A DNA stretch of 34,336 bases from positions 1-34,336 of the IMG/VR virus record IMGVR_UViG_3300010371_000081, one strand, 5' to 3'. Shown piece after piece: positions 1,699 to 30,627 of the stretch. The first letter of the stretch is position 1. Each line of letters opens with the position of its first letter. The stretch comes from a virus. The notes beneath the pieces were generated by a model, which saw only the letters and a list, made by a program, of their open reading frames with translations, did not search any database and had not been told where the DNA came from. A program made the position numbers and the translations under genes.

Positions 1699-1700
1699 GC

Positions 1701-2009
1701 ATGATGACGTTGACCGTTGAGGGATACCCGATCGGCCGTTCAGTCGAAGCCGCTGGTGACGGCACGGAGTTGTTCGCCGTGTGGCCGCTTGAGCTTCCTG
1801 GATGTATCGCGCAAGGTGAGTCGATGACGGACGCCGTGGCGCGCCTTCGCGACATCCTTCCGAATTACCGCGCCGCACTCGAGGCGCGCGGAGCCGCAGC
1901 GCCGCCGCCGCGTGCGTTGCCGCCGGTCACCATTGGGTTCGCGACGTTCGCGACGAACGCGGGCGCGATCTACGAGCCTGACCTGCTCCGCTCCGGGGTC
2001 CCAGCCTAG
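1701..2009 (+). CDS. HicB-like antitoxin
   Basis: Product of about 102 residues. The core ELFAVWPLELPGCIAQGESMTDAVARLRDILPNYRAALEARGAAAPPP matches the HicB fold (ferredoxin-like, partial RNase-H-like): a strand, the PxLPGC-xxGES turn, a long helix, and a closing proline run. HicB binds and blocks HicA and often represses the operon through a C-terminal DNA-binding domain. Here the tail after the core (VTIGFATFATNAGAIYEPDLL) shows no helix-turn-helix or ribbon-helix-helix motif. The start could be 1701 or 1704; the frame is open further upstream from a GTG at 1665, but that codon sits inside the Shine-Dalgarno. With the preceding gene it forms a HicAB-type toxin-antitoxin pair. Confidence 0.7.
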   Translation: MMTLTVEGYPIGRSVEAAGDGTELFAVWPLELPGCIAQGESMTDAVARLRDILPNYRAALEARGAAAPPPRALPPVTIGFATFATNAGAIYEPDLLRSGVPA

Positions 2010-2042
2010 GGATCGCATCGCGGTGCAAGCGCTCTGTGTGAT

Positions 2043-2387
2043 ATGAGCGGCCACGAACTTCCGCCGCCGGCGCCGCGCATCACCGTCCAGGCCTACATCC
2101 CGCGCGTCGCCTTCGACGCGCTCGAGACTCAGGGCCTCCGGTTCGAATACTCAACCAAGGTGCCGCACACCCAGCGCGGCCAGGTGCGGCTCACGATGCA
2201 GCTCGCGGTGGCGACGCAGCTGCTCGAGCAGATCCGAGCCCGCGGCGAGACGACGGAATCGGCGCCGCTCGTCCTCGCCTGCGCGGCGGCGGCGAAGAAC
2301 CTGATCGCGGCGATCGACGAGGCGCTCGCGCTCCAGTCGCGGCCGTTCGGCCTCGACGTCGGGCGGTCGCGGCCGGATCCGGCGTAG
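2043..2387 (+). CDS. Hypothetical protein, helix-rich
   Basis: Product of 114 residues starting MSGHELPPPAPRITVQAYIP. No family is recognised. An N-terminal stretch with beta character (RITVQAYIPRVAFDALETQGLRFEYSTKVPHTQRGQVRLTMQLAVATQLLEQI) is followed by Ala-rich helices (LVLACAAAAKNLIAAIDEALAL). No signal peptide, membrane helix or metal motif. No clear Shine-Dalgarno before the ATG. It is the last plus-strand gene before the convergent junction with the SGNH fibre gene. Codon use is like its neighbours, supporting a real gene. Confidence 0.55.
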   Translation: MSGHELPPPAPRITVQAYIPRVAFDALETQGLRFEYSTKVPHTQRGQVRLTMQLAVATQLLEQIRARGETTESAPLVLACAAAAKNLIAAIDEALALQSRPFGLDVGRSRPDPA

Positions 2388-2389
2388 CG

Positions 2390-2425
2390 CGATCGCTCAG
2401 TTTCGCTCAGGTCGACGAGCGATCG
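2390..2425. terminator. Inverted repeat at convergent gene ends
   Basis: A perfect 9-bp inverted repeat, CGATCGCTC at 2390-2398 and GAGCGATCG at 2417-2425 with an 18-nt loop, sits where the plus-strand operon (stop at 2387) meets the end of the minus-strand SGNH fibre gene (stop at 2407-2409). The right arm lies in the last codons of that gene. There is no T-tract on either side, so it is at best an atypical, possibly bidirectional, terminator. Confidence 0.4.
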
Positions 2426-5217
2426 ATGATCAGCACGCCTTGCGCTTTCGCGATCGTGCCGTCGGGCCACACCGCCTTCGCCTCGGCGATGTAGCTCCCC
2501 GGCGTCGCGTCGTCGGCCGCCTGAATGCGATAGCTCACCTTCCCGTTCGGTCGATCGACCGCGACGAGGTCGGCGCCATCAATCAGCAGCGTCGCCGGCG
2601 TGTGCGGGTTCCATGCGCTGAAGGTGAGCGTCGCGCCGGTCAGATCTTGCGGCGGCCGCGGCGCGCTCGGCGCGCTGCCCGGCGGGAGCGCGCCCAGGAA
2701 TTGCATCGGGAGCGTTTTCACTTCGCCCTGATAGATGCGGGCCGTCGACATGAGCGTATCTCCATCGTTGTCGTAGAAGGCGAGCTGAGTGCCCGCGTCG
2801 TCGAACGTCAGGTCGGAGCCGGCGTCGTCGAACGCGAGCTCGAGCGGGCCGTCGACGAGCGGGGGGATTGCGGCGGGGTTGAAGAGCGCTTCCCACGCGG
2901 ACGCGATCGTCGCGGCGACGCGCCCGAGCCAGCTCGCCGGCGATGTTATGGCGGCGCGGACGCCACCGAGCTGCTCGATCGGTGCGACGGCCGACTGGTT
3001 TACCGCGCTCAGATGCTCGTCCGCGGCGCTGCTCGCGGCGATCGCACGCGCCAGCGATTCGCCGGCCGACGCCGACGCCAAGGAAGCCCGCGACAGACTC
3101 TCGTCGCTCGCGCTCCGGCTGCCGGCGACGCGCCCGAGCCATTCCATCGCGACGACGAGGCTGTTGGAGATGGCGGTCACCGTGAGCCCGAGGGCTTCCC
3201 ACGGCGCGACGCCGGATCCGGCGATGCGGCCGAGGTTTTCATCCGCAGTTACACCGGTTGCTGCCGCGCGGCCCAGGGTCTCGTCGCTTGCGATCGACGC
3301 CGCGGCGGCGCGTTGCACGTTCTCATCGGGGCTCGTCGATACGCTCGACGCCGGCGCGACGCTCTCATCGGCGCTCGCCGCGGGCGTCGCGATCCGCCCG
3401 AGATTCTCGTCCGGCGCCGCGAGCGTCGTAGCGATCCGGCCGAGGTTCTCATCCGGCGCGCTCGTGGCCGTGGTGGCGCGTTGCGCGTTCTCGTGTGGCG
3501 CGGTCGACGAGCCACTCGCCCGCTGCACGTTTTCGTCGGCGACGGTCGTCGTCGAGGCGACGCGGCCCATATTCTCGTCCGGCGCGGCGGTCGTCTGCGC
3601 GACGCCGCCGACCGATTCCCAACTCGAGCCGCTCGCCGTGGAGACGGGCGTCGACGTGACGCTGATCGGTGTGGCGGGCCGGAGCGCGCGCATGATCATC
3701 GCGACGCGGCCGCTGAGCCCTTTCGCCGTCGGCCGCATCGGCGGCGCGATGGTCGCCGGCTGCGTGAGCGCGTTGCTCAGGAGGCCGGCCGCGAAGAGCT
3801 GATTGAAGATGTACGTGCCCGTGAGCCCGTAGCTCAGGTCCATCGAGTGGATGCCGTCGGCGTTGTAATACGTCGTGTTGGTCGTGACCGTATCGGAGCC
3901 GCCCGAGGGATCCCGGTACGGAAACACACCGCCGCCCGCGTCGAACACCTGGCTCAGATCGAACACGAGGTCCGCGCCCGAACCGCCGCCCAGCATCCAG
4001 CTATTGACCGCCAGCCGCTCGGTCTCGCTCGACGTGCCGAACCAGCCGCCGAGGGGAATGATCGTGCAGATGCCGACCCGTGCGCCGGCGGCCTGGAATG
4101 AGGCGACGCCGGCCGCGAGCGCCGACTCGAGCGCGGCGGTATTGCTGCCCGAGACGTCGTTCGCGCCGAGGCGGATGATCACGACTTCGCGATAGCCCGC
4201 TGCGCGCCTGGCGGGGCTGCACATCGCGGCCAGGTGATCGGCGTACGTGTGCGTCTGTCCACTGAGCACCGTACAGCATTCGACCCCGGCGATCGACGGC
4301 GTGCCGCGGTTGATGACGTCGATCTTGAGCGACTGCGCGTTGATCAGCTTCTGCAAAGTCGGCGGATACCCGGTCCCCGTGGGATCGACCGGCACCGTGA
4401 CGCTCGGGGCGCTCGACTGCGTGCCGAACGTCAGCGAATCGCCGAGACAGAGGATGAGCCCTTTGGAATCGGCCTGGCGATAGAGATCGACGTTGTCGCT
4501 CAGCGTCTCGTCCGCGACCATCACTTCGATCGCGGCGCGATCGGCGGCGAGCAGCGCGTCCGCGAGCCAGAGGAAGCCGCGCACCCGCATCGCGCCGAAC
4601 GCCGTCGAGTACTTGCCGAGCGAGATGAAGCCCGTAGTCGCCGTGTTCGACAGCGGCTCGATCAGCGGCGCGCGGCCGACCGGCTCGTACATCCAGACAT
4701 TGCCCGACGATCCGCCGGGGTCCGCGCTCACCATCCCGTAGTGACTCGGCTTCGAGATGATGAAGAGCGACCGCACGCCGGACGCCGGCAGGAGCTTGGG
4801 CGCCGTGTCGCTCGCGCCGAAGAACTTCGTGATCGATCCCGAGCGCTGAATCAGCGCGAGCTGCGCGCCCGCGTCGCTGTCGATCGCCAGCGGCCAGAAC
4901 GACGGCGCACCAATCAGCTCGCCCCAAAGGACGAGCGTCGCCGGCGTCGTGTTGTTGATCGCCGTGGCCGCGAGCGCGGTCGCCTGGCGGATGAACGACG
5001 CGCTGCCGTCGGTGATGACGTAGTTGGCATCGACGGTCGGTGCCGTGCCGCCCGCCCCGCCGTTCGGCAGGAGCGTGGGGCCAAAGCCCGTGTTGCCCCG
5101 GTAGTCGTCCCACCCGGTCAGATTACTCCCGGAGGTGGCGACGCCCGCGCTCCGATGGTAGATCGCCGCGATGCGGCCGGAGCCGATCGCGGCGATACAG
5201 GTGTCGACAGCGCTCAC
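2407..5217 (-). CDS. Tail fibre/spike with SGNH hydrolase domain and 14-residue repeats
   Basis: Product of 936 residues from a GTG start. Residues 1-245 look like a LamG/concanavalin-A-type jelly roll. Residues 252-475 form an SGNH (GDSL) esterase: block I GDSL at 259-262 with nucleophile Ser261, block III GAND at 351-354, and block V DGIH with Asp454 and His457. All catalytic elements are present. Residues 533-780 are tandem 14-residue repeats. The last 115 residues (STARIYQGEVKTLPMQF ... NGKVSYRIQAADD...) resemble the Ig-like BppU N-terminal fold of baseplate proteins. SGNH domains on fibres usually de-O-acetylate surface glycans, so the inferred job is host-surface deacetylation at the tail tip. 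It is the most downstream gene of the late module. Confidence 0.8.
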   Translation of the reverse strand: MSAVDTCIAAIGSGRIAAIYHRSAGVATSGSNLTGWDDYRGNTGFGPTLLPNGGAGGTAPTVDANYVITDGSASFIRQATALAATAINNTTPATLVLWGELIGAPSFWPLAIDSDAGAQLALIQRSGSITKFFGASDTAPKLLPASGVRSLFIISKPSHYGMVSADPGGSSGNVWMYEPVGRAPLIEPLSNTATTGFISLGKYSTAFGAMRVRGFLWLADALLAADRAAIEVMVADETLSDNVDLYRQADSKGLILCLGDSLTFGTQSSAPSVTVPVDPTGTGYPPTLQKLINAQSLKIDVINRGTPSIAGVECCTVLSGQTHTYADHLAAMCSPARRAAGYREVVIIRLGANDVSGSNTAALESALAAGVASFQAAGARVGICTIIPLGGWFGTSSETERLAVNSWMLGGGSGADLVFDLSQVFDAGGGVFPYRDPSGGSDTVTTNTTYYNADGIHSMDLSYGLTGTYIFNQLFAAGLLSNALTQPATIAPPMRPTAKGLSGRVAMIMRALRPATPISVTSTPVSTASGSSWESVGGVAQTTAAPDENMGRVASTTTVADENVQRASGSSTAPHENAQRATTATSAPDENLGRIATTLAAPDENLGRIATPAASADESVAPASSVSTSPDENVQRAAAASIASDETLGRAAATGVTADENLGRIAGSGVAPWEALGLTVTAISNSLVVAMEWLGRVAGSRSASDESLSRASLASASAGESLARAIAASSAADEHLSAVNQSAVAPIEQLGGVRAAITSPASWLGRVAATIASAWEALFNPAAIPPLVDGPLELAFDDAGSDLTFDDAGTQLAFYDNDGDTLMSTARIYQGEVKTLPMQFLGALPPGSAPSAPRPPQDLTGATLTFSAWNPHTPATLLIDGADLVAVDRPNGKVSYRIQAADDATPGSYIAEAKAVWPDGTIAKAQGVLIIDRSST
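2878..3621 (-). repeat. 42-bp coding tandem repeat (14-residue units)
   Basis: Within the SGNH fibre the glutamate of the motif x-P-D-E-N-L-G-R-x-A recurs with exact 14-residue spacing: residues 534, 548, 562, 576, 590, 604, 618, 632, 646, 660 and 674. After a single 4-residue insertion it continues at 692, 706, 720, 734, 748, 762 (Ser here) and 776. That is 18 units. The DNA units are diverged, so the period, not the sequence, is conserved. Probably a rigid fibrous shaft. Confidence 0.85.
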
Positions 5218-10496: not shown

Positions 10497-10985
10497 TCAC
10501 GGCGCGGCCTCTGGCGGAGGAACTTCCGAGTTGCCGACAACGAGGAGGAACGGCTGGCCCTGCATACGCGTGACGAAATCGGCCACTGCGTCGCGCGATT
10601 CGAGCACGCCTTCGCCTTCCGCGCCCGCGTGCGGCCCGCTATCGAGCTTCACGTACCCGAAGCGTCGCCCGAGCGCGATGCAGCCGAGCAGTTCGATCGC
10701 GAGATTGGCCGGATGGATTTCGATGTCCTCGCGGCCCGGAACGTCTTGGACGCCGTAGACCTGGCCGTGATGCTTCACCGAGTCCCGCATCGCGCATACG
10801 AACTCGCCGGTGCAGATGCAGGAGACATCGGGCGCGTTCCCAGCGTCGGGTAGCTCGACCGTGACCGCGAGTTGTCGATGCTCGGCGTCTTCCCAGCGGC
10901 CGAACGTCGCCGTGGCATTCGGCCCCGCCGGGGCAAAGCGGGTGAGATAGATGCGCGGGAGCGTCGAGCGGTCGATGTCACTCAC
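10497..10985 (-). CDS. DUF5675 family protein (lysis-cassette candidate)
   Basis: Product of 162 residues from a GTG overlapping the previous stop (GTGA, 10982-10985). The central signature DVPGREDIEIHPAN (about 81-94) followed by LGCIALG (100-106), then VLESRDAV, matches what I recall of DUF5675, a phage/bacterial family often near lysis genes. The His91...Cys102 pair recalls the HG...S-GC-R layout of L,D-transpeptidases, suggesting but not proving a cysteine-based cell-wall activity. No signal peptide. As no conventional endolysin is visible in the window, this is the best candidate for a wall-active enzyme here. Biochemistry is inference. Confidence 0.65.
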   Translation of the reverse strand: MSDIDRSTLPRIYLTRFAPAGPNATATFGRWEDAEHRQLAVTVELPDAGNAPDVSCICTGEFVCAMRDSVKHHGQVYGVQDVPGREDIEIHPANLAIELLGCIALGRRFGYVKLDSGPHAGAEGEGVLESRDAVADFVTRMQGQPFLLVVGNSEVPPPEAAP

Positions 10986-11458
10986 GGCGACAACCAGCAG
11001 GCCGAGGCCAAATACCCGCCGAGAATCGTCGTGGCGGCGAGCGCGACACCTTGCCACGAATGCGCCGAGAGGCCAGTGACGGCGATCAGGGGGACGCTCG
11101 CAAGGAAGGCGTCGGCCGCCGCGTCACGCGGGTCAACGGGACGATGTTCGAGGAGCTGCGCGACGTGCGGCGCGACGCCAACCGTCACCGCGGCAATGCT
11201 GGCTGAGGCGACCGGGCCGCGGCGGAAGAGCAGATGCGCCAGCTCGGTCGTCGACACCGAGAGGCCGACGCGAATCGTCTCGTGTTCCCAGCGGGGCGCG
11301 ATGAAGCCGCCTTTGGTGCCCGCGCTCACGTAGGAGTCGAAGCGGCGCTCGGCGAGATTGCAATCCGGCTTCGTCGAACCTTGCGCGGTGACGACCGCCG
11401 CCGTTCCGCAGAACGCGAAGGCGCCGAGTGCGAGGAGCAAGAGGACGCGCGTCTTCAC
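10982..11458 (-). CDS. Exported/membrane protein, unknown
   Basis: Product of 158 residues from a GTG overlapping the previous stop (GTGA, 11455-11458). A signal peptide or anchor (KTRVLLLLALGAFAFCGTAA, cleavage near VTAQ) precedes a domain with His and Asp residues and several hydrophobic helices (VASASIAAVTVGVAPHVAQLL, FLASVPLIAVTGL, GVALAATTILGGYLA). There is a faint resemblance to YfiM-type small membrane proteins (His ... Gly ... D-AAD pattern), too weak to assign. Part of the coupled cassette. Confidence 0.5.
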   Translation of the reverse strand: MKTRVLLLLALGAFAFCGTAAVVTAQGSTKPDCNLAERRFDSYVSAGTKGGFIAPRWEHETIRVGLSVSTTELAHLLFRRGPVASASIAAVTVGVAPHVAQLLEHRPVDPRDAAADAFLASVPLIAVTGLSAHSWQGVALAATTILGGYLASACWLSP

Positions 11459-11781
11459 GGCGTGCTCCCGGCATTGCCGTTCCGCCAGCGCGCGACGAAT
11501 GGGAAGATCGCCCCGAGAATCGACTTCGCGCTGTCCGTCACCGCGGCGACCGCACCGGGGATTGCGGCGAGGATCACGAGCACACCGAAGCCGATGCCGC
11601 CGAGGAAGAAAGCGAGATGTGTGGTCGAAGCCGGGGTCGTCTCGTGCTCCTCATGCCAGAGGAGCCAGCCGTTCACGACGCACACGCCAAAGCCGACGAG
11701 CACCAACGCGAATCGCGCGAGGGCGCGGGCGAAGGCGCCTTCCTGCGGCGCCGTGGCGGTCGGCCCGGTGGGTGTCGTCAC
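11455..11781 (-). CDS. Two-helix membrane protein, holin candidate
   Basis: Product of 108 residues from a GTG overlapping the previous stop (GTGA, 11778-11781). Two strong transmembrane segments (ALVLVGFGVCVVNGWLLW and LAFFLGGIGFGVLVILAAIPG) are separated by a charged loop (HEEHETTPASTTH). The C-terminus is basic (FVARWRNGN). Size, two helices and basic tail fit class II/III holins, and the neighbours include another membrane protein and a DUF5675 protein. Holins share no reliable motif, so this remains a topology- and context-based guess. Confidence 0.5.
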   Translation of the reverse strand: MTTPTGPTATAPQEGAFARALARFALVLVGFGVCVVNGWLLWHEEHETTPASTTHLAFFLGGIGFGVLVILAAIPGAVAAVTDSAKSILGAIFPFVARWRNGNAGSTP

Positions 11782-12101
11782 GCGGTCGCCCCCCGCTGCG
11801 CCGAGCGTCGGTCGTGGAGGAGTGTCTTCAACTGCTCCTCGATCCGCGCCAACGTCTCGGGCATCTTCTTGAGGTCCCGGAGGTCGGATTCCGATTCATC
11901 GACCCGACGTTCGAGCGCCGGAATGCGCCGCTCGTGGTCCGCGAGCTTGGACAGTTCCGGCTTCAAGTCGCGCCGGAGGAGCGTCATCAGCGCGGGGAGC
12001 AGAATGAGGCGGGCGACGACGACGAAGGCGGTCAGGGTCGCCGCCGGCGAGCGGAGCGCGGCGAGCCATCCTGGCGTATCGGAGAGCGCTGGGACCTGCA
12101 T
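11778..12101 (-). CDS. Membrane-anchored coiled-coil protein
   Basis: About 107 residues from the ATG at 12101, which has GAGG about 11 nt upstream; an ATG at 12119 is also in frame but lacks a Shine-Dalgarno. One transmembrane helix (TLTAFVVVARLILLPALMTLL) is followed by a charged heptad-like helix (PELSKLADHERRIPALERRVDESESDLRDLKKMPETLARIEEQL). The layout resembles small phage proteins next to holins. It is the first gene of the coupled cassette after a 230-bp gap that carries a copy of the 26-bp repeat, so transcription may start there. Confidence 0.5.
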   Translation of the reverse strand: MQVPALSDTPGWLAALRSPAATLTAFVVVARLILLPALMTLLRRDLKPELSKLADHERRIPALERRVDESESDLRDLKKMPETLARIEEQLKTLLHDRRSAQRGATA

Positions 12102-12119
12102 GGCGGCGCGCTGCCTCAT

Positions 12120-12350
12120 CAGAGCATGGACGGAATCCGAGGAGTTCCAGGACGAGCAGGGAAGTGGCGTTCGTCCACGGCAGGATACGAATGGGCGAGT
12201 GCCGCTGCCGTGCAGGTTATTCAGCGGAGCGAAGTCGCGGGTCGTGATCGCTTCCGTTTTCTAAAGCGCAGGATAGGACGGGCGTCCGACGCGCGCGGGG
12301 AAATCGGGTGCAGTTTGAGCCACCCTTCGAACCGCCATTCGCGGAGCGCC
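12120..12350. other. 230-bp intergenic region ahead of the lysis-like cassette
   Basis: No credible gene in either strand. It holds one copy of the 26-bp repeat (12246-12271) and two TATCCTGC-type blocks, one abutting the repeat (12269-12280 as caggataggacg) and one at 12181-12187 (caggata). The likely place for transcription control of the downstream minus-strand cassette. No terminator with a T-tract is seen. Confidence 0.5.
12246..12271 (-). repeat. 26-bp intergenic repeat, copy A
   Basis: Identical over 26 bp to 28184-28209, with core TTCCGTTTTCTAAAGCGC on the plus strand. Contains a short inverted repeat CGCTT-N10-AAGCG, like an operator or protein-bound hairpin. Lies upstream (in the transcription direction) of the membrane/lysis-like cassette. 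A caggataggacg block directly overlaps its right end; the same block occurs 22 bp from copy B. Confidence 0.8.
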
Positions 12351-13637
12351 CTACGCCGTCGCGCGCATCGCGCTCATGGCCTGCACCGCGGCGCCCCATC
12401 GGACCGAGAGCAGCGCGGCGTAGCCAGGAACGCCACCGCGGTCGCTGAGCGTCAGCGTGGCATCGTGCCAGGCCGACGCGATCGGATTGACCTGCGAGGC
12501 CGTGAATCCCGCCGATTGCGTCCCCAGCGTCTCGGTCGCGCCGGCGATCGATTGCCCGAGTTGGACCGATCCATCGGCAAAGAGCGCCGCGCGCACTTCG
12601 TTGAGCTGCCCGAAGCTTGGCGTCCCGACGGCCGAGGAGACCGCCGTTGAACTGTTCAAATGCTCGACCGCGTAGACGCCGCCGCTATTGAAGATGAATA
12701 AGGCCGGCGTGGTCGAGGCGCCGATGCCGATGAGCCCCGGCGTGGCGCCGGTGATGAGGTTGCCGCGCTCGATGTGCTTGACGTAGAGCGTCGAGACTTG
12801 CGGCGGCGCCGTGACGGTGAACGTGAGCGTCTCGCCCAACCGGCTCCCGGTCGTCGTCGTGGTGACGATGAGCGAGGTCGGTATGAGCGCGTCCTCGACC
12901 TGAAAGCCGGTCCCATAGAATGCGGTGGCCGTGCCGCCGAATCCGGAGTTGTCGTTGGCGTAGATGAAGTGCGAATGCGCGTGCGTGACGGAGGCCGATT
13001 GTCCCTTCACCTCATAGCCGCCGCTCGCGATCTTGACCGCAGAGATGATCGTGCCGACGCCGGTCGAGGAAAACGTCATCGTGCCGTCGGCGGCAACGGT
13101 GGCCTGGACGACCGCGCGCGCGACGGCGCTTGTATCGTCCCACACGGGGAGGACGAACACAGTGCCCGTCGCTCCGGGAAAGGCTTTGATGCGGAACGAG
13201 TATGCCTTCCCGCCGTCCGAGGCGAAGGTGATCGGTTGCCGAATCGCGCTCGTATTCGCGTTCGCGAACAAGCACCACGAGAGCCCGGCCGCCGTGAGCG
13301 CGGCATTCGTCGGCAACGTTCCGCTGACATTGACCCAGGGCGTCGTCGCGACGGTGCAATTCTGCTTGACGAGATTCGTCGTCGCCGGCTCTAGCAAGAG
13401 CGCGACCGCATCCCGCACCCCGTCACCATCGGTGTCGATGGCGATGAACCGCGGCTGATTGGGCAACGCGGGACCGTAGACGCCATTCGAGTCGATGACG
13501 CCGACGGACTGTGTATCGTTCCGCGCGAACACTCCCACCTGTCCCGTCCGGGCGGTGAGGGAGAGGTCCGCGGCTTCCCACTGAAAGAGCCGTCCGGTCT
13601 GCCGGCCCACGTCGAGCGCCCCATAGGGGAAGGTCAT
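12351..13637 (-). CDS. Tail/head spike-fibre protein with carbohydrate-binding-like domain
   Basis: Product of 428 residues with a good Shine-Dalgarno (GGAG about 6 nt before the ATG). After a short N-terminal adaptor comes DTDGDGVRD (68-76), a calcium-binding-type loop. It leads into LLLEPATTNLVKQN, a signature I associate with phage 'head spike fibre' proteins whose jelly-roll carbohydrate-binding module follows (AYSFRIKAFPGATGTVFVLP ... THAHSHFIYANDNSG). A second beta-sandwich at the C-terminus resembles a LamG fold (NEVRAALFADGSVQLGQSI ... TLTLSDRGG). Location after the Dit-like gene supports a receptor-binding tail spike or fibre. Confidence 0.7.
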   Translation of the reverse strand: MTFPYGALDVGRQTGRLFQWEAADLSLTARTGQVGVFARNDTQSVGVIDSNGVYGPALPNQPRFIAIDTDGDGVRDAVALLLEPATTNLVKQNCTVATTPWVNVSGTLPTNAALTAAGLSWCLFANANTSAIRQPITFASDGGKAYSFRIKAFPGATGTVFVLPVWDDTSAVARAVVQATVAADGTMTFSSTGVGTIISAVKIASGGYEVKGQSASVTHAHSHFIYANDNSGFGGTATAFYGTGFQVEDALIPTSLIVTTTTTGSRLGETLTFTVTAPPQVSTLYVKHIERGNLITGATPGLIGIGASTTPALFIFNSGGVYAVEHLNSSTAVSSAVGTPSFGQLNEVRAALFADGSVQLGQSIAGATETLGTQSAGFTASQVNPIASAWHDATLTLSDRGGVPGYAALLSVRWGAAVQAMSAMRATA

Positions 13638-23652: not shown

Positions 23653-25899
23653 CTACAGGGCATCCTTGATCGTGGCGAATGCCGTCGGGTAGCGGTCCGC
23701 CACGTCGACGAAGTTCCACGAGGTGATCTCGATCATGTTCTGGTTCTTCTTCGAGTACGGATCGACGAGCGTCTCGAAGCCGGCGCCGAACATGCCGATC
23801 AGGATCTGATCGAACGCGCCGAAGATGACCGCGGAGCAGCCCGTGGCCGTGCCCTTCGTCAGGTTCGACGGCGCCTGGTTGGAGGCGATGGCGCGATAGC
23901 CGTTCACGATGCCGTCCATCTCGCCCGGCACGTTCTGCCAGATCGGAATGCCCGAGTTGGTGTTGCCGAGCACGCCCGACTTCTTCGCGACGCCCCGCTG
24001 CTTCGTGTTCGTGATGTACGAGAGCGAGCCGATGCCGTCGGCGTTCGCGTTGCCGATGGCGGACTCGAGGTCGATCCAGTTGCCCCAGGCCATCGTGCCA
24101 CCCTGCGGGCCGAGCGCCGCGGCCGTGCCGACGTTCGTGTCCTGCAGGAGGCCGAGCGGCTGGTTGGACGAGCCCAGGCCGTTCAGGCCCGCGAGATCGA
24201 TCGCGACCGCGATCACCGTGGCGAGGTCCGCCATGATGAGCTGGTCGAGGGCGTAGTTGCCCGACGCCGCCGAGAAGAGTGCCTGTCGCGACACGCTCGT
24301 CGACGACTGGATCGTCTTGAACGCGAGCGAGACCGACGTGGTGGTGAGATTGGACGCGGTGTTGTCCGAGCCCGGATTCTCACCGACCCAGTTCGCGGTC
24401 GCCGCCGTGAGCTGCTTCGGGAAGGTCACCGGACCGGTGAGGCCCGGGATGACCGTCGCGCCGGCGCGCATGACCGACGTCTTGTTCCGGAGCAGGGGGA
24501 TGAATTCTCCCGGCTGCGTGAACTTGAAGATGCCGCCGGTCGAGGCCGTGGCCGAATCGACGCCCGCGCGGAAATACTGATCGCCGGAGATCGAGAGCGG
24601 GACCATGACGCCGCCGTTCCGGGCATCGGGGCTCTTCTTCCGCGCCTCCTGCATGATCTCGCGCTCGAAGCCGAGGTCGATCGACCGGGCTTCGCGCTCG
24701 AGCTCGGGGCACGCGACGAGCAGCGCGCGGCTGAACGAGAAGCGCTTCCGCTCGTTGGCCGGCACCTCGACGCCGCTCGTGATCTGCGGACCGTCCTTGA
24801 TCCGCTTCTCGAGCACGGCGTTCACTTCCTTGAGCACGTCGTTCACGGATTTGCCGGAGCGCAGCCACTCGGCCGCACGCTCGGTCAATCCGTGCTGCGA
24901 CGCGATCGTGTTGATGTTCTCCGCGCGCGTCGCCTCGTCGGCGCGCGCGCGGTCGACGATCGCCGTGACCTGCGCGGCCGCCTGCGCTGCGTCCGCAGCA
25001 GACCGACCCGACGTCGTCTCGACGTTGGCGTTCTGGTCTGCGGTCGTGGTTCCGTTGGTTCCGTTCGAGGCCCCGCCCGGGGCCGTGCCATTGTCGGGCA
25101 TGGTGCGCTCCTCGGCCTTTCGGGCCTCAGTGGGTGATGTGGGTACTGCTGGTGCCGAGCGTTCGCCCTCGGCTGGCGTTTGCATTTGCGTCGTTGATCC
25201 GTCCGGCATCGTCACGAGATCGAGAAACCGTATGAGCGCCGCTTGTCCATCGGCACTCTTGGCGCGCCCGACACCGACGTCGTAGTCGGCAGGAACCGGA
25301 ACCGTCGACACCTCGAGCGGCATCCACGCGGTGTAGCGGCGGATCGGAATGCCGTCGGCGCCGCCCTTGGTCTGCGTGTATTGATCGCCGACGACGTAGC
25401 CGACCGAGACCTTCTTCCGGATGCCATCGCGCATGTCCTGCGCGATCTCCTGGCTCCGCTGGGCACGACTCATCCGCGCGTCGCCGCGAAGGACTTTCTT
25501 CTCGACGCGCACGTTCTCGACCAAGCCGTGCTGCTGATCGGCGTCGTAACTCCGGTGCGAGGCGATGAAGGGGAGCCCGTCGCGCGCATAATCCATGATC
25601 ACCGACTTGGGCGCGTGGTCGAGCACTTCCCAGTACCGCGGGTCCTCGGACGAGGACCACCAGTCATAGCGGAGCACCGGTGTTTCGCTCGAAATCGAGA
25701 GCGCGATTGGCGCGTTCGGGTCGCGCCCTTGGGCGCCGTCGACCTCGCCGTTGCCCCCGTCGCCTCCGTCACTCCCGCTCTCGTCATCGATTTCGGCGAC
25801 GCGGTAGTCGATCCGCGGCATCCCCTGCGGATACGCAGCGCGGAGCTTCGTGAGCTCGTCGGGCGTCGGCTTCTTGAAGGCGGGAGCAGGAGCCGTCAT
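23653..25899 (-). CDS. Prohead protease-major capsid protein fusion (HK97 fold)
   Basis: Product of 748 residues. Residues about 70-215 are an HK97-family prohead protease: SIS-SETPVLRYDWWSSSED, FIASHRSYDADQQHG (His115 as likely catalytic base) and RKKVSVGYVV (Ser165 as likely nucleophile). Residues 215-300 are a Pro/Thr/Gly/Asn linker, 300-425 a coiled-coil delta/scaffold segment, and about 430-748 the HK97-fold capsid protein (GEFIPLLRNKTSVMRAGATV, TFPKQLTAATANWVGENPG, FKTIQSSTSVSRQALF, NWIDLESAIGN, GFETLVDPYSKKNQ). Proteases are normally separate genes, so the fusion needs cleavage or the internal start at 25101 to give enough capsid. The start overlaps the portal stop (ATGA, 25896-25899). 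Confidence 0.9.
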   Translation of the reverse strand: MTAPAPAFKKPTPDELTKLRAAYPQGMPRIDYRVAEIDDESGSDGGDGGNGEVDGAQGRDPNAPIALSISSETPVLRYDWWSSSEDPRYWEVLDHAPKSVIMDYARDGLPFIASHRSYDADQQHGLVENVRVEKKVLRGDARMSRAQRSQEIAQDMRDGIRKKVSVGYVVGDQYTQTKGGADGIPIRRYTAWMPLEVSTVPVPADYDVGVGRAKSADGQAALIRFLDLVTMPDGSTTQMQTPAEGERSAPAVPTSPTEARKAEERTMPDNGTAPGGASNGTNGTTTADQNANVETTSGRSAADAAQAAAQVTAIVDRARADEATRAENINTIASQHGLTERAAEWLRSGKSVNDVLKEVNAVLEKRIKDGPQITSGVEVPANERKRFSFSRALLVACPELEREARSIDLGFEREIMQEARKKSPDARNGGVMVPLSISGDQYFRAGVDSATASTGGIFKFTQPGEFIPLLRNKTSVMRAGATVIPGLTGPVTFPKQLTAATANWVGENPGSDNTASNLTTTSVSLAFKTIQSSTSVSRQALFSAASGNYALDQLIMADLATVIAVAIDLAGLNGLGSSNQPLGLLQDTNVGTAAALGPQGGTMAWGNWIDLESAIGNANADGIGSLSYITNTKQRGVAKKSGVLGNTNSGIPIWQNVPGEMDGIVNGYRAIASNQAPSNLTKGTATGCSAVIFGAFDQILIGMFGAGFETLVDPYSKKNQNMIEITSWNFVDVADRYPTAFATIKDAL
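25099..25113 (-). promoter_or_regulatory. Internal Shine-Dalgarno and ATG inside the protease-capsid fusion
   Basis: In the linker after the protease domain, GAGGAG (25113-25108) lies 6 nt before an in-frame ATG (25101, Met267, followed by PDNGTAPGG). This is as strong a ribosome site as any in the window and would yield a separate 482-residue scaffold-capsid product. Confidence 0.65.
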
Positions 25900-27542
25900 G
25901 AGACTTTCCTCACTGGGATCGCTGAACGCTGGGGCAGCGGATGAATCGGCAGTGCGCGCGCGAACGACTTGCTCGACGCGTCGGCGGCACCGCTCCCGTC
26001 GCCTGCGGCATCCGGCGCGGTCTGATCAGTGCCCCCGGGATCGGTTTCGCCGGTCGGGCGATCGGTGATCGTCGTGGCGAGCGTCGATGGCACGTTGTAT
26101 TGCTGAAGGAGGCGAATCTCTTCCGCCCGCTCTTCGATGATCTCCTCGAAATCGACGCCCCGCTCGGCGCACATGCGCGTCAACGAGTGCACGCCGGCCG
26201 CGACCTCGATCAGCTCGCCCTGCACGTCCTTGAGCGGATCGATCCAGTCGAAGCCGCGCGGCTGGAAGAGCACGCGCGTCCACCGGTTCACGTCGAAATC
26301 CGTGATGCCCGAGATGCGCTGATTGAGCAGCGCCATCTTGAGCCAGCGGCGGTAGATGCGGTCGAGCACGTGCACGACGATGAACTGTTGCCACCGGCGC
26401 CAGTGATCGCGCTCGTCCAACATCCCCACGCGGAGCGAGCCGTAGTTCGCTTGGCTCAGGTCGCCGGTCAGCGTGCCGTACGAGACCGCGTAGCCCATCG
26501 CGGCATATTGCGCGAGCTTCGTCGTGAAGGACGGAAACGCCGCCGTCGGATGTTGCGGGTCCCAGAGTTGGAGATGGCCCTTGCCGCGGAGATCCATCAG
26601 CGTCCCCGGGTCGGCTTCGGCCGGGATGTCGGGCGACTCGTTGACCGCGGACGGGTCGACGTTCGGCGCCGGGCCGTCGCCGTTCGGCAGATCCTCGATC
26701 GTGCCCATCTTCGCTGACGCGATGCGCGCGGCCACGAGCTCGGCTTCGATGTAGCCGTCGAGCATCTTGATCGTGGTCATGATCGCGGCTGCGTGCGGAA
26801 TGCCCCGCGACTGCTTTGCGCGCTTCGGGATGAAGGCGTGAATGATCTGCTCGGCCGGGATGCATACGCGCTTCCGGTCGATCGCGCCGTCGTTCGGGTG
26901 ACGCGTCCAGAGGTGATAGGCCGCCGGCGCGCCGAAGCGGTCGAACTCGACGCCCTGATGGATCATCGGGAGCGCGTTCGCGCCATCGCCCGATGCTTCC
27001 CGGTTGAGCGTCTCGTCCAGGAGGTCCGGGTCGAGCAACTCGAGCATGAAGCCGTACGGGCCGAACGCCGGCCCTTCCCAGAGGCGAATCAGAATTTCGC
27101 CATCCGTCGCCCACTCCGCCGTCGCGAGATTCAAGCACTCGGTGAGCGAGAGCTTTTTCGTGACGTCGCAATTCTCGGGGCGCGACCAGTCGAGCCACGC
27201 CGTTTCGATCCCCGCATTGGCGCCGCGGTGGAGATCGGTGCCGTCCTTGAGCTTGTTCTTCGCTTTCAGGCGAATCCCGGTCGGACCGATCACCTTCTCC
27301 GCGACCAACGTCGAGTACTTGGCACCGAACGGCGAATTGCGATCGAGCTCGCGTGCGCGATTCCGGAGCGTGCGCAGTTCGTAGCGGGTCTCCTGATCCG
27401 CCGAGCGCGAGGCCGCCATGACCCAGTCGGAGGTCAGGCGGTTGAAGAGCGAGCCCGCGAACGCGTTCCGCTGCGCACGCGCCGGCGTCCGGGGCGCAAT
27501 CGCGCGCGCCAGCGCCGAGCGGAACTTCGCGATCGCACCCAC
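25896..27542 (-). CDS. Portal protein, lambda gpB family
   Basis: Product of 548 residues from a GTG that shares a base with the previous stop (TAGTG). N-terminal basic helix, then DQETRYELRTLRNRARELDR-N and YSTLVAEKVIGPTGIRLKAK, ATAEWATDGEILIRLWEGP, and IPAEQIIHAFIPKRAKQSRG: the pattern of lambda-family portals (Phage_portal_2). Twelve copies form the channel at the capsid vertex for DNA entry and tail attachment. The C-terminus is Pro/Thr/Gly-rich. Overlaps the protease-capsid start by 4 nt. Confidence 0.9.
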   Translation of the reverse strand: MGAIAKFRSALARAIAPRTPARAQRNAFAGSLFNRLTSDWVMAASRSADQETRYELRTLRNRARELDRNSPFGAKYSTLVAEKVIGPTGIRLKAKNKLKDGTDLHRGANAGIETAWLDWSRPENCDVTKKLSLTECLNLATAEWATDGEILIRLWEGPAFGPYGFMLELLDPDLLDETLNREASGDGANALPMIHQGVEFDRFGAPAAYHLWTRHPNDGAIDRKRVCIPAEQIIHAFIPKRAKQSRGIPHAAAIMTTIKMLDGYIEAELVAARIASAKMGTIEDLPNGDGPAPNVDPSAVNESPDIPAEADPGTLMDLRGKGHLQLWDPQHPTAAFPSFTTKLAQYAAMGYAVSYGTLTGDLSQANYGSLRVGMLDERDHWRRWQQFIVVHVLDRIYRRWLKMALLNQRISGITDFDVNRWTRVLFQPRGFDWIDPLKDVQGELIEVAAGVHSLTRMCAERGVDFEEIIEERAEEIRLLQQYNVPSTLATTITDRPTGETDPGGTDQTAPDAAGDGSGAADASSKSFARALPIHPLPQRSAIPVRKVS

Positions 27543-28144
27543 TAGAACGCCCCCGGGAAGCGATGCCGCATACTGGGGATCGTGCCGGATGGGCCGAACG
27601 CGAACTCGACACTCCCGATTGGCCGGCGTGCGTTGATGATCGCCGAGACCTCGGCCGCGTACTTATTCCGAAGCCGCTCAAGCTCTTCGAGCGACGCCTT
27701 CCGCGTCGCCGTCCCGTCGACCGTGTACTCTTCGATCACCTGCTGCCCGGTCACACGTGCATCGATCGCCGCTTCGATGGCGGCGAGCGTGCGGAACGCG
27801 CGCGGCTGATCTGCGAATCCGGCCGAGAGGTCCGGCGCCAGCGAGACCGTGATCTGCTCGAGCGTGACCCGCCGCCCGGTGCCGTCCGATGCCCAGACGG
27901 TGAGCTGATAATGGCCGCTCGGCAGCTTCGACGTCCCGGCGTTGCCGACGAAGTAGACGTGGAAGTCGGAGCCTTCCGCGGCGCACGACGTCGCTGCCAT
28001 GACGGCGTTGTCCGCGCCCGTGAGACGCGCGGAGCCCGTCCAGCCAGAATAGGCGGACGGGATCGCGACGAGGAATTCGATGGAATCCCCGGCGACGACG
28101 TGGCGCGGCGCTCGATGTGTGAGCGGAGGAACGGAGACCGTCAC
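27542..28144 (-). CDS. Connector with Ig-like N-domain and gpW-like C-domain
   Basis: About 200 residues from a GTG at 28144; a GTG at 28168 is also in frame but lies inside the repeat-bearing intergenic region, and neither has a Shine-Dalgarno. Residues 1-105 form a beta-sandwich (DSIEFLVAIPSAYSGWTGSA, HYQLTVWASDGTGRRVTLEQ) similar in style to BppU/Ig-like phage domains. The C-terminal 75 residues (LAAIEAAIDARVTGQQVIEEYTV...SLEELERLRNKYAAEVSAI) resemble the gpW head-completion fold. Its place between terminase and portal is exactly that of gpW in lambda. The N-terminal Ig-like extension is unusual for gpW. Confidence 0.6.
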   Translation of the reverse strand: MTVSVPPLTHRAPRHVVAGDSIEFLVAIPSAYSGWTGSARLTGADNAVMAATSCAAEGSDFHVYFVGNAGTSKLPSGHYQLTVWASDGTGRRVTLEQITVSLAPDLSAGFADQPRAFRTLAAIEAAIDARVTGQQVIEEYTVDGTATRKASLEELERLRNKYAAEVSAIINARRPIGSVEFAFGPSGTIPSMRHRFPGAF

Positions 28145-28183
28145 GCATGGCAGGATAGGACGCCGCACGCCAGGGTGCGCGCC

Positions 28184-28209
28184 GATCGCTTCCGTTTTCT
28201 AAAGCGCAG
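28184..28209 (-). repeat. 26-bp intergenic repeat, copy B
   Basis: Identical to 12246-12271 over 26 bp. Lies between the winged-helix gene stop (28232) and the gpW-like gene start. Contains CGCTT-N10-AAGCG. A caggataggacg block (28151-28162) sits 21 bp to its left. Directly to its right, on the minus strand, GGCTGTAGC is repeated twice in tandem (28231-28214), just after the winged-helix stop. Confidence 0.8.
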
Positions 28210-28231
28210 CGCCGCTACAGCCGCTACAGCC

Positions 28232-28597
28232 TTATCCCGTGCCCGTCGACGTCGTCGGGAGCGGCATGGTGGCGAGTTCGCGGAGTTGCCGCGGCTCGCG
28301 CGCCGGGTTCGAGTGCACGAGGCGGTAAGAGAAACGATCCGACTTTCCGATCCGCTCCCGCTCGCGCTCGACATATCCGAGTTCAATCAATCGTCGCAGC
28401 GAAATCGACGCATTCGTCTGTGAGATGCGGAGCGCGTACTCGATCTCGACGAGCTTGACCGTCCGATATTGGACCGTATCGAGCACATGAAACAGCCACG
28501 TGTACAATTCCCGCGGATTACCGCGGAGCGCGACGTCCTGCATCGCAGTGACGGCGGCGGGGAGCACCGGCAGCATCGACGACGTCGGATCGCTCAT
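28232..28597 (-). CDS. Winged-helix DNA-binding protein
   Basis: Product of 121 residues from an ATG at 28597 (GGAGG 11 nt upstream); an in-frame GTG at 28615 overlaps the terminase gene. Residues about 38-95 form a winged-helix: TVKLVEIEYALRISQTNASI (helix 2, turn, recognition helix SISLRRLIELGYVERER) followed by a basic wing (RERERIGKSDRFSYRLV). This is the MarR/ArsR-like style of small transcription regulators. The N-terminal helix (ELYTWLFHVLDTVQYR) probably dimerises. Placed between the large terminase gene and head-tail genes, next to a copy of the 26-bp repeat: a candidate late-gene regulator, or alternatively a packaging accessory. Confidence 0.7.
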   Translation of the reverse strand: MSDPTSSMLPVLPAAVTAMQDVALRGNPRELYTWLFHVLDTVQYRTVKLVEIEYALRISQTNASISLRRLIELGYVERERERIGKSDRFSYRLVHSNPAREPRQLRELATMPLPTTSTGTG

Positions 28598-28602
28598 CGG
28601 TG

Positions 28603-30627
28603 TCAGCGCCTCCACGAGTTGATATATCCGCCAGGCGGACGGCGGGGAGGACGTGCGGCTTGCGCTGTTTGGCGCGGCGTCGGCACGGCGGGGCCTGCGG
28701 CCGGCGCCGCCTCAACGCCGCCGTCGACGGGGGGCGCCGGCGTCGCGCCGGACGCGGCCCGCTGTTTCTCGCCCTCGGCCCGCGCCCGTGCAACCCACGT
28801 CGACAGCTGGTCGTAGACGCCCGCGCCGAGCAGGTGCAGCATGTGGAGATTGCCGACCTCGAGATCGATCGCCTCGTTGCGCGCGCCTTTTGGAGACACC
28901 TCGTAGACGCGGTACGGCACGCCGTGCGAGTAGTAGAGAACGGCCTTCTCGCGCCCGAATTGCGCGAGATATTCGTCGTCGCATCCTCCGTCGGGGAACG
29001 GCTTCGGGAAATGGAGGAAGCCGGGCGGGCAGGAGCGATCGGCCGCGCGCTCGAGCTTGAGCCGCGGGAAGATGATGTCCTTGGCCGTGTCCGCACCGAT
29101 GGGGAAGACGCGCACGCCGTACTTGTTTCGCTTGGACGGCCGACCCGCGATAATCGGTCGGCCGCGAACCGAGGATCCCTTCGTCGCGTACACGGGGCAG
29201 ATCGCGCGCTTCTGTCGCGGCGCCACGAATCGGTAGACGGGGTGCACGTTCTCGCCGTCGCCCGAGTCGATGCCACAGACCGTGATGTGGAGCGCGGAGC
29301 CCGATTCGTGCGCATACGGCTTGAGCAGCAGGGGATCGAGCCGCTCCCACACGTCCGGCAGCGCGGTGCTCCCGCGGATCCGGTGATGCGCGATGAGCCA
29401 GGATTCCTGACCGGCGCCCCATCCCCTGACGAGGAGTTCCAGCCAGTCGCGTTGCACGTCCACGAACGCCGTGAGGACGCCAACGCCGGCAGGGACTTCG
29501 GCCGCATACACTTCGCGGCGCGCGCCGATGGCGTCCGTATCGATCGATTCGCCATCCGTCTCCCACGTCTCACCGAGCGCCGTGTTGACGAACGTGCGAA
29601 GCTGCTCGGGGCTCTTCTTGGCCTCGAGGAATTCGGTGATGAGATATTCCCAACTCACCCATGGGGAGTAGAGCGCGTTCAAGTGGAAGCTCGCCGTCTT
29701 GAACGTCGCCGACTCCGCAACCCAATCGGCCAGTCCGCCCATCGCGCGATCGCGGAGCATGTTGGGCTTGTGCGTCTCGGCGATGCAGGCCCCGCATTTT
29801 TCGCACACGTACTCGGCGTTGTCGAAATCGAGGTTTGCCCACCGTAGCGATTGCAGCGCTTCGCAGTGCGGACAGGGGACGCGATACCGCCGCCGGTCGC
29901 CGCCGTTGAAGGCCGTCTCGATCCGCGACACGCCCTTCACGGTCGGTGTTGAAAAGAGACCTTCCTTCCTATTCCAGAAATTGAGCGTGCGCTTCTTCGC
30001 GAGCGACACCGGGTCGCCTTCCTCGCCGGCTGAGGGCGGGAAACGGTCGACCTCGTCGTCGAGGACCACGCGGATCGGCCGCGATGCGAGGCCCGCGGCG
30101 GAATTGGCGCCCGCCATCGTGATCTGGCCGCCGGGGAACTGCTTGTGAAGGATCGTGTCGTCGCCGTCGCGGCGCCCCGTGTCGGGCAGGAGCGCGGCGA
30201 ACCGCGAAGAGGCGCGGAGCATTTCACGCAGGCGATCTTTCGAGAAGGCGCGCGCCATCTCGATCGTCGGCTGCAGCACCAGGATCGGCGCCGGGTCCTG
30301 ATCGATGAAGTAGCCGATCACGTTGAGCACGATCTCGGTCTTGCCGACCTGTGCGCTCGACATCACGACTACCCGCTCGATGGACGGATCACAAAACGCG
30401 TCCATGATGCCGCGCTGATACGGCGCACGGTCGGTGCGCCACCGGCCCGGCTCGGCCGAGGCAATGCTCGTGAGCGCGCGAAACTCGTCTGCCCATTCTG
30501 ACACCGTGTACTTGGGCGGCGGCGTGAAGATCGACCCGCGAAGCGCGCGCTCGCGCTGGATCGCGACGTGGTATCCGCAGAGCTGGTGGACGGCGTGCGC
30601 GCCAGGTACGTCGGTCGCCGCGATCAT
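28603..30627 (-). CDS. Terminase large subunit, lambda gpA family
   Basis: Product of 674 residues. ATPase: Walker A SSAQVGKTE (90-98) with Lys96, Walker B VVLDDE (187-192), Q-motif-like PYQRGIMD upstream. A zinc ribbon (Cys252, 255, 276, 279) follows, and the nuclease part contains DVQRDW (Asp390) and CGIDSGDG. This layout matches the gpA family (PF05876), which cuts at cos and drives DNA into the prohead. The C-terminal tail (APPVDGGVEAAPAAGPA...) is Pro/Ala-rich and disordered. The start overlaps the small subunit stop (ATGA, 30624-30627), so the holoenzyme is made from one transcript. Confidence 0.95.
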   Translation of the reverse strand: MIAATDVPGAHAVHQLCGYHVAIQRERALRGSIFTPPPKYTVSEWADEFRALTSIASAEPGRWRTDRAPYQRGIMDAFCDPSIERVVVMSSAQVGKTEIVLNVIGYFIDQDPAPILVLQPTIEMARAFSKDRLREMLRASSRFAALLPDTGRRDGDDTILHKQFPGGQITMAGANSAAGLASRPIRVVLDDEVDRFPPSAGEEGDPVSLAKKRTLNFWNRKEGLFSTPTVKGVSRIETAFNGGDRRRYRVPCPHCEALQSLRWANLDFDNAEYVCEKCGACIAETHKPNMLRDRAMGGLADWVAESATFKTASFHLNALYSPWVSWEYLITEFLEAKKSPEQLRTFVNTALGETWETDGESIDTDAIGARREVYAAEVPAGVGVLTAFVDVQRDWLELLVRGWGAGQESWLIAHHRIRGSTALPDVWERLDPLLLKPYAHESGSALHITVCGIDSGDGENVHPVYRFVAPRQKRAICPVYATKGSSVRGRPIIAGRPSKRNKYGVRVFPIGADTAKDIIFPRLKLERAADRSCPPGFLHFPKPFPDGGCDDEYLAQFGREKAVLYYSHGVPYRVYEVSPKGARNEAIDLEVGNLHMLHLLGAGVYDQLSTWVARARAEGEKQRAASGATPAPPVDGGVEAAPAAGPAVPTPRQTAQAARPPRRPPGGYINSWRR

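Follow-up and report, generated by a model that had tools for sequence, protein, structure and literature searches.

The locus raises the question of why a phage should keep the same 26 nucleotides in two separate gaps between its genes. The sequence analysed (the window), 34,336 bases long and 67% G+C, is a linear virus record, probably incomplete, from a soil phage. Its structural genes lie on the minus strand in the order terminase small subunit, terminase large subunit (gpA type, 28603-30627), winged-helix DNA-binding protein (127 aa, 28232-28615, adjoined on its upstream side by the large subunit gene), head-tail joining protein (PHROG 5774, 27542-28144), portal protein (25896-27542, in the proposed head operon), major capsid protein and tail genes, followed on the same strand by a block of small membrane and unknown genes. 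The capsid gene (23653-25899, minus strand) encodes 748 aa with the Phage_capsid domain confined to the C-terminal third, which suggests a fused protease/scaffold domain.

The repeat and its two gaps

One copy of the element (copy 2; 28184-28209, minus strand; gene-strand sequence CTGCGCTTTAGAAAACGGAAGCGATC) lies in the gap (28145-28231) that separates the winged-helix gene from the head-tail joining gene, where it begins 22 nt past the winged-helix stop codon. The identical copy 1 (12246-12271, minus strand) lies in the gap 12120-12350, flanked upstream by a tail protein gene (PHROG 5939; 12351-13637, minus strand) and downstream by a gene for a small predicted membrane/coiled-coil protein (11778-12119, minus strand). 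The latter protein, the first to be encoded after copy 1, is holin-like by position only, no family match having been found for it, and the block that follows copy 1 is likely a lysis block, as assigned from position and gene size and not from a family match. A DUF5675 protein is encoded in the same block (10497-11057, minus strand) and had no match in the relatives checked. A short frame at 12117-12179 (minus strand) begins with GTG at 12179 and ends in a TGATG that overlaps the ATG at 12119, and it might be translationally coupled to the first lysis-side gene.

As an earlier note made from the sequence had claimed, the two copies agree at 26 of 26 positions, lie in true intergenic gaps and have the same orientation relative to the minus-strand genes. 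No other direct repeat in the window is as long, the runner-up measuring 19 nt, and the longest repeat in simulated sequence (third-order Markov, n = 60) did not exceed 21 nt, so the repeat is not a product of chance. No third copy was found in the window with up to 3 mismatches allowed, and the best other gene-strand site there matches the element at no more than 17 of 26 positions. The CGCTT-N10-AAGCG pattern described in the same note is present as well, and is confined in the window to the two element sites (0.09 expected). The dyad has 12 of 20 symmetric positions in the window versus 10 of 20 in the relative L207 (see below), where the outer arms are lost; since perfect symmetry is not conserved there, the dyad is less certain than the site itself.

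A late promoter, an operator and a packaging-related site had all been suggested as roles for the repeat. The last is not supported, because the copies are not near the terminase start, because there are two of them, and because in L207 the element follows the winged-helix gene into an unrelated head module. A cos or pac site, expected as a single site near the terminase small-subunit gene, was rejected in the same way, the two copies lying ~2.4 kb and ~18 kb downstream of that gene. Explanations by Rfam families, tRNAs or terminators were also tried, and nothing was found. The reading as a late promoter or operator, on the other hand, gains support from the comparison with relatives.

Candidate promoters at a fixed distance

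The octamer TAWCCTGC occurs four times in the 34-kb window, every time on the gene strand and within the two element gaps, its first bases (reading down the gene strand) being 28157, 12275, 12219 and 12187. By chance 0.41 occurrences would be expected for both strands, and none of 100 shuffles reached four. Two of the octamers, the candidate -10 boxes TATCCTGC (28150-28157, minus strand, ahead of the GTG at 28144) and TAACCTGC (12212-12219, minus strand), stand exactly 26 nt downstream of copy 2 and copy 1, respectively, this being the number of bases between the end of the element and the initial T of the box. A second TATCCTGC box, 58 nt downstream of copy 1 (12180-12187, minus strand), is a possible secondary promoter, and a further TATCCTGC box lies over the upstream edge of copy 1 (12268-12275, minus strand), a possible extra promoter that would be blocked by a bound protein. 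The "caggatag" blocks reported earlier near both copies are real, being the reverse complement of TATCCTGC, and their arrangement does differ between the gaps; what had been overlooked is TAACCTGC at 12212-12219, which makes the spacing the same at both copies.

From its pattern and position, TAWCCTGC looks like a sigma-70-type -10 box, with the reservation that the sigma-70 consensus may not be that of the host. A search of both window gaps for a sigma-70 -35 hexamer at 16-18 nt upstream of the -10 box found none. If transcription is assumed to start 7 nt past the -10 box, both copies of the element would be placed at about -65 to -40, copy 2 in the candidate promoter of the head-tail joining gene and copy 1 in the candidate promoter ahead of the lysis/membrane-protein gene block.

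The first of these promoters also bears on the start of the head-tail joining gene. Downstream of copy 2, TATCCT is followed after 7 nt by the GTG at 28144, and so begins 13 nt ahead of it. TATCCT, or CATCCT in the case of L008, is likewise found 6-7 nt ahead of the same head-tail start in the relatives L007, L008 and L030, and upstream of GTG 28144 there is no head-tail gene start common to the relatives. Alignment with the relatives and the position of the promoter indicate that the gene probably starts at GTG 28144, as in the coordinates given above, and would be leaderless, the longest-ORF start at 28168 probably being wrong. Leaderless genes of high-G+C bacteria carry a TANNNT box some 12 nt ahead of their start codon (PMC3160421), and this arrangement is seen at the head-tail gene in the window, L007 and L030.

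Versions of the site in related phages

A scan with the winged-helix alignment led to L207, L208 and L209. The first two are near-identical overlapping contigs and thus represent one independent close relative, and the L209 contig stops inside the winged-helix gene, before the position of the element. The L207/L208 winged helix is 65% identical to that of the window and is the only window protein, among those tested, with a match in these contigs, whose head module (DUF4055 portal-like, Mu F-like and P22-type coat proteins) is unrelated to that of the window. At the 3' end of the winged-helix gene, CAGGACTTTAGAAAGCTGAAGCGATC matches the element at 21 of 26 positions and is followed, after exactly 26 nt, by TATCCTGCC, the candidate -10 box at this distance being TATCCTGC. 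The next best match in these contigs reaches 16/26; the chance of a 21/26 match is ~3e-4 for the locus, with its position not yet counted. In L207 the element overlaps the last winged-helix codons, so part of its conservation could be coding. Conservation in close relatives, which the earlier note had taken as a touchstone, is seen in both records whose DNA can be read downstream of a closely related winged-helix gene, and the element is absent where the winged helix has diverged or is missing. Element and winged helix occur together, a pattern that fits the pointing of the earlier note to this protein.

L008, the single analogous case found, is a phage of 38.4 kb that is syntenic with the window, with a terL 56% and a winged helix ~31% identical. 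The window's element is absent from L008, which carries an element of its own (CCTGACTTCYATTACGCAAGTAG...) in the gap after the winged-helix gene and in the gap between the tail genes and the lysis-side genes. The 75-nt regions upstream of its two -10 boxes are identical at 56 of 75 positions, ungapped and in register with the -10 box, and the next best sites for this region in the 38 kb reach 35/75 on the gene strand and 38/75 on the other. Both promoters have the form TTGNNN-17-NATNCT with a GTG 6-7 nt downstream, the -35 sequences being, by inspection, TTGATC and TTGCTG at a spacing of 17 nt. The similarity between the gaps begins within the last winged-helix codons, and one of the element copies has poor symmetry. 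Apart from L008 itself, a pattern scan for this element hit nothing but chance sites in A+T-rich phages. The phage of the window and L008 therefore resemble each other in carrying, in both of these gaps, an element that is particular to the lineage and keeps a constant spacing to a -10 box. Together with L207/L208, this comparison suggests that the sequence of the element tracks the similarity of the winged helix and its position tracks function. On the contig of L008 (L192), a gene for a 446-aa putative integrase (1700-3314) adjoins a partial tRNA-like 3' half, which suggests that the phage had integrated as a prophage; a complete tRNA was not detected with ARAGORN.

Other relatives have other solutions at this locus. 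The winged helix and the -10 box are present in L007 and L030, with no recognisable element; both are short contigs in which the second gap is not covered. A different small HTH-like protein takes the place of the winged helix in L004, L005, L006, L202, L204 and L010. Small GerE/sigma-70-region-4-like HTH genes lie between the terminase and head-tail genes in L004 (5053-5280) and L010 (4995-5225), the GerE/sigma-region-4 match being found in the L010 protein and no Pfam match in that of L004. L003 (5630-5740) and L201 (1075-1165) lack an HTH gene. What precedes the head-tail gene there resembles a promoter that leads into a very stable G+C hairpin and a run of Ts, and it recalls a late promoter controlled by antitermination at a terminator further downstream. 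A simple terminator scan left the hairpins of L003 and L201 unscored. Exact scans with an 18-mer core in viral contigs and with a 22-mer core in genome contigs gave no match, and terL relatives in genomes, at most ~54% identical, indicated no host.

A proposed late-promoter site and its regulator

The winged-helix protein, proposed here as the cognate regulator, scores 25.0 bits against HTH_27 (curated cutoff 22.2) and falls below the cutoff of MarR_2; the Pfam scan returned HTH_27, MarR_2 and HTH_34 only. Its AF2 model has a confident core at residues 20-100, with block pLDDT values of 79-93. By sequence the protein matches MarR chains in the PDB, and by fold it matches ArsR and MarR proteins, the best being the ArsR protein CzrA (2e-3) and none falling below an E-value of 1e-3. 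It contains no cysteine. No match to it was found in named phages or plasmids, nor, in a search made without a positive control, in ~690 genomes from the phyla of G014 and G017. The recognition-helix regions differ between the window, L007, L008 and L030, as would be expected if the sites of these phages differ too.

We consider the most probable explanation, at roughly 0.6, to be that the element is the upstream site of two late promoters, for the head-tail and lysis genes, and is bound by the adjacent winged-helix protein, likely with an activating effect. The protein would be made along with the packaging genes, would bind the element at about -65 to -40 of both promoters and would recruit RNA polymerase to them, the head/tail operon and the lysis block thereby being switched on together. 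Recruitment is the most likely action of the bound protein since both promoters combine a good -10 box (TAWCCTGC) with no recognisable -35. We infer the binding from sequence comparison, the nature of the -10 box from its pattern and position, and activation over repression solely from the missing -35; the L008 promoters do have TTG at this position.

The main rival, which we hold to be unlikely, makes the element an operator at which both late promoters would be repressed, by the winged-helix protein or by some other repressor such as one acting in a lysogen. Winged helices of the MarR/ArsR type are mostly repressors, and it is to this type that the regulator is assigned; the extra TATCCTGC in the gap of copy 1 overlaps the upstream edge of the element and would be blocked by a bound protein; and the TTGNNN -35 with its 17-nt spacing implies that the L008 promoters may not need an activator. 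Against this, a position at about -65 to -40 is upstream of the core promoter and typical of an activator, the window promoters are without a -35, and the regulator would be expressed along with the packaging genes, in lytic growth.

An improbable alternative is a UP element, an A+T-rich tract contacted by the alpha subunit of the host RNA polymerase with no phage regulator involved. The tract CTTTAGAAAA, at about -60 to -51 within a 67% G+C genome, is what such an explanation would start from, yet the G+C-containing half GAAGCGATC is conserved to the same degree as the A+T tract, L207 included, the L008 element (CTTCYATTACGCAAGTAG) is not an A/T tract, and a UP element needs neither identity over 26 bp nor the company of a winged-helix gene.

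Two further explanations are very improbable. The element could be an RNA signal in the transcript, either a boxA/nut-like antitermination site, given the presence of TGCGCTTTAGAAAACGGAA, which we take to resemble the boxA sequences of rRNA operons, or a hairpin, as the element alone can form one of 6 bp (-6.5 kcal/mol, z -1.8); the hairpin does not form in a longer context, however, Rfam gave no match, the 26-nt register to the -10 box is left unexplained, and the element, being upstream of the inferred start sites, would be missing from transcripts begun there. Nor is the identity likely to be the functionless outcome of a recent event in which a DNA segment or 3' gene tip was duplicated: segments do appear to have been copied between gaps, since the L207 element forms the coding 3' end of the winged-helix gene and the L008 similarity starts in the last codons of its own, but in the window the identity ends sharply at 26 bp between unrelated flanks with the -10 box still in register, two phages each have a pair of different sequence in the same two gaps, and 21 of 26 positions are kept in L207.

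A broader and more tentative proposal, to which we give somewhat less than even odds, is that a gene for a MarR-like winged helix forms, together with its site and a leaderless-type promoter, a previously undescribed late-control cassette. The cassette may be passed on whole between phages whose head genes are unrelated, each lineage having its own version of the site copied to the head and lysis promoters and the regulator and sites co-evolving, with sister lineages swapping in a LuxR/sigma-region-4-like HTH protein or a promoter with a strong hairpin. The analysis thus offers a concrete regulator-site-promoter hypothesis for late control in uncultivated G+C-rich environmental phages, in which transcription is almost unstudied. 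The winged-helix variants, each with its own duplicated site, would provide a natural series of orthogonal regulator-promoter pairs, and the -10 motif and leaderless starts give hints on the host.

Comparable arrangements are known. P2 late promoters have their activator site near -55 and a weak -35. In P2/186-type phages, a short site (TGT-N12-ACA) recurs upstream of several late operons and is bound by the small phage activator Ogr/delta (PMC3931495). Like these, the window has the same site in two gaps at a fixed 26 nt from the -10 box, and the L008 pair is in register too; unlike them, its regulator is a winged helix free of cysteines rather than a CX2CX22CX4C zinc finger, is encoded between the terminase and head-tail genes, and is accompanied by only a chance-level 3 matches to TGT-N12-ACA in the window, none of them in either gap. 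In Mu, the single activator C serves several late promoters (lys, I, P and mom), lysis included, and acts from a site that precedes the -35 region (PMC4461284). A single phage activator for several late promoters, one of them for lysis, is likewise what we propose, with a different site sequence and a protein that has no Mor/C-family match. The RinA type of staphylococcal phages is described as a small transcription activator that is encoded by the phage and takes part in packaging (PMC9867676); the likeness lies in a small phage-encoded protein proposed as a transcription activator, whereas the window protein has no RinA-family match and its late genes are served from two gaps with the same site. 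With leaderless TANNNT genes (PMC3160421) the window shares the TATCCT 13 nt ahead of the head-tail GTG, and differs in the additional duplicated upstream element. With MarR/ArsR regulators it shares the sequence matches (HTH_27, MarR_2 and PDB MarR chains) and those of fold, in a protein that differs in being compact, with a core of ~75 aa and divergent flanks. Since TGT-N12-ACA, cysteines and a Mor/C domain are all missing from the gaps or the protein, the winged helix belongs to neither the Ogr nor the C family, and P2 Ogr and Mu C are the closest functional parallels to the proposed control.
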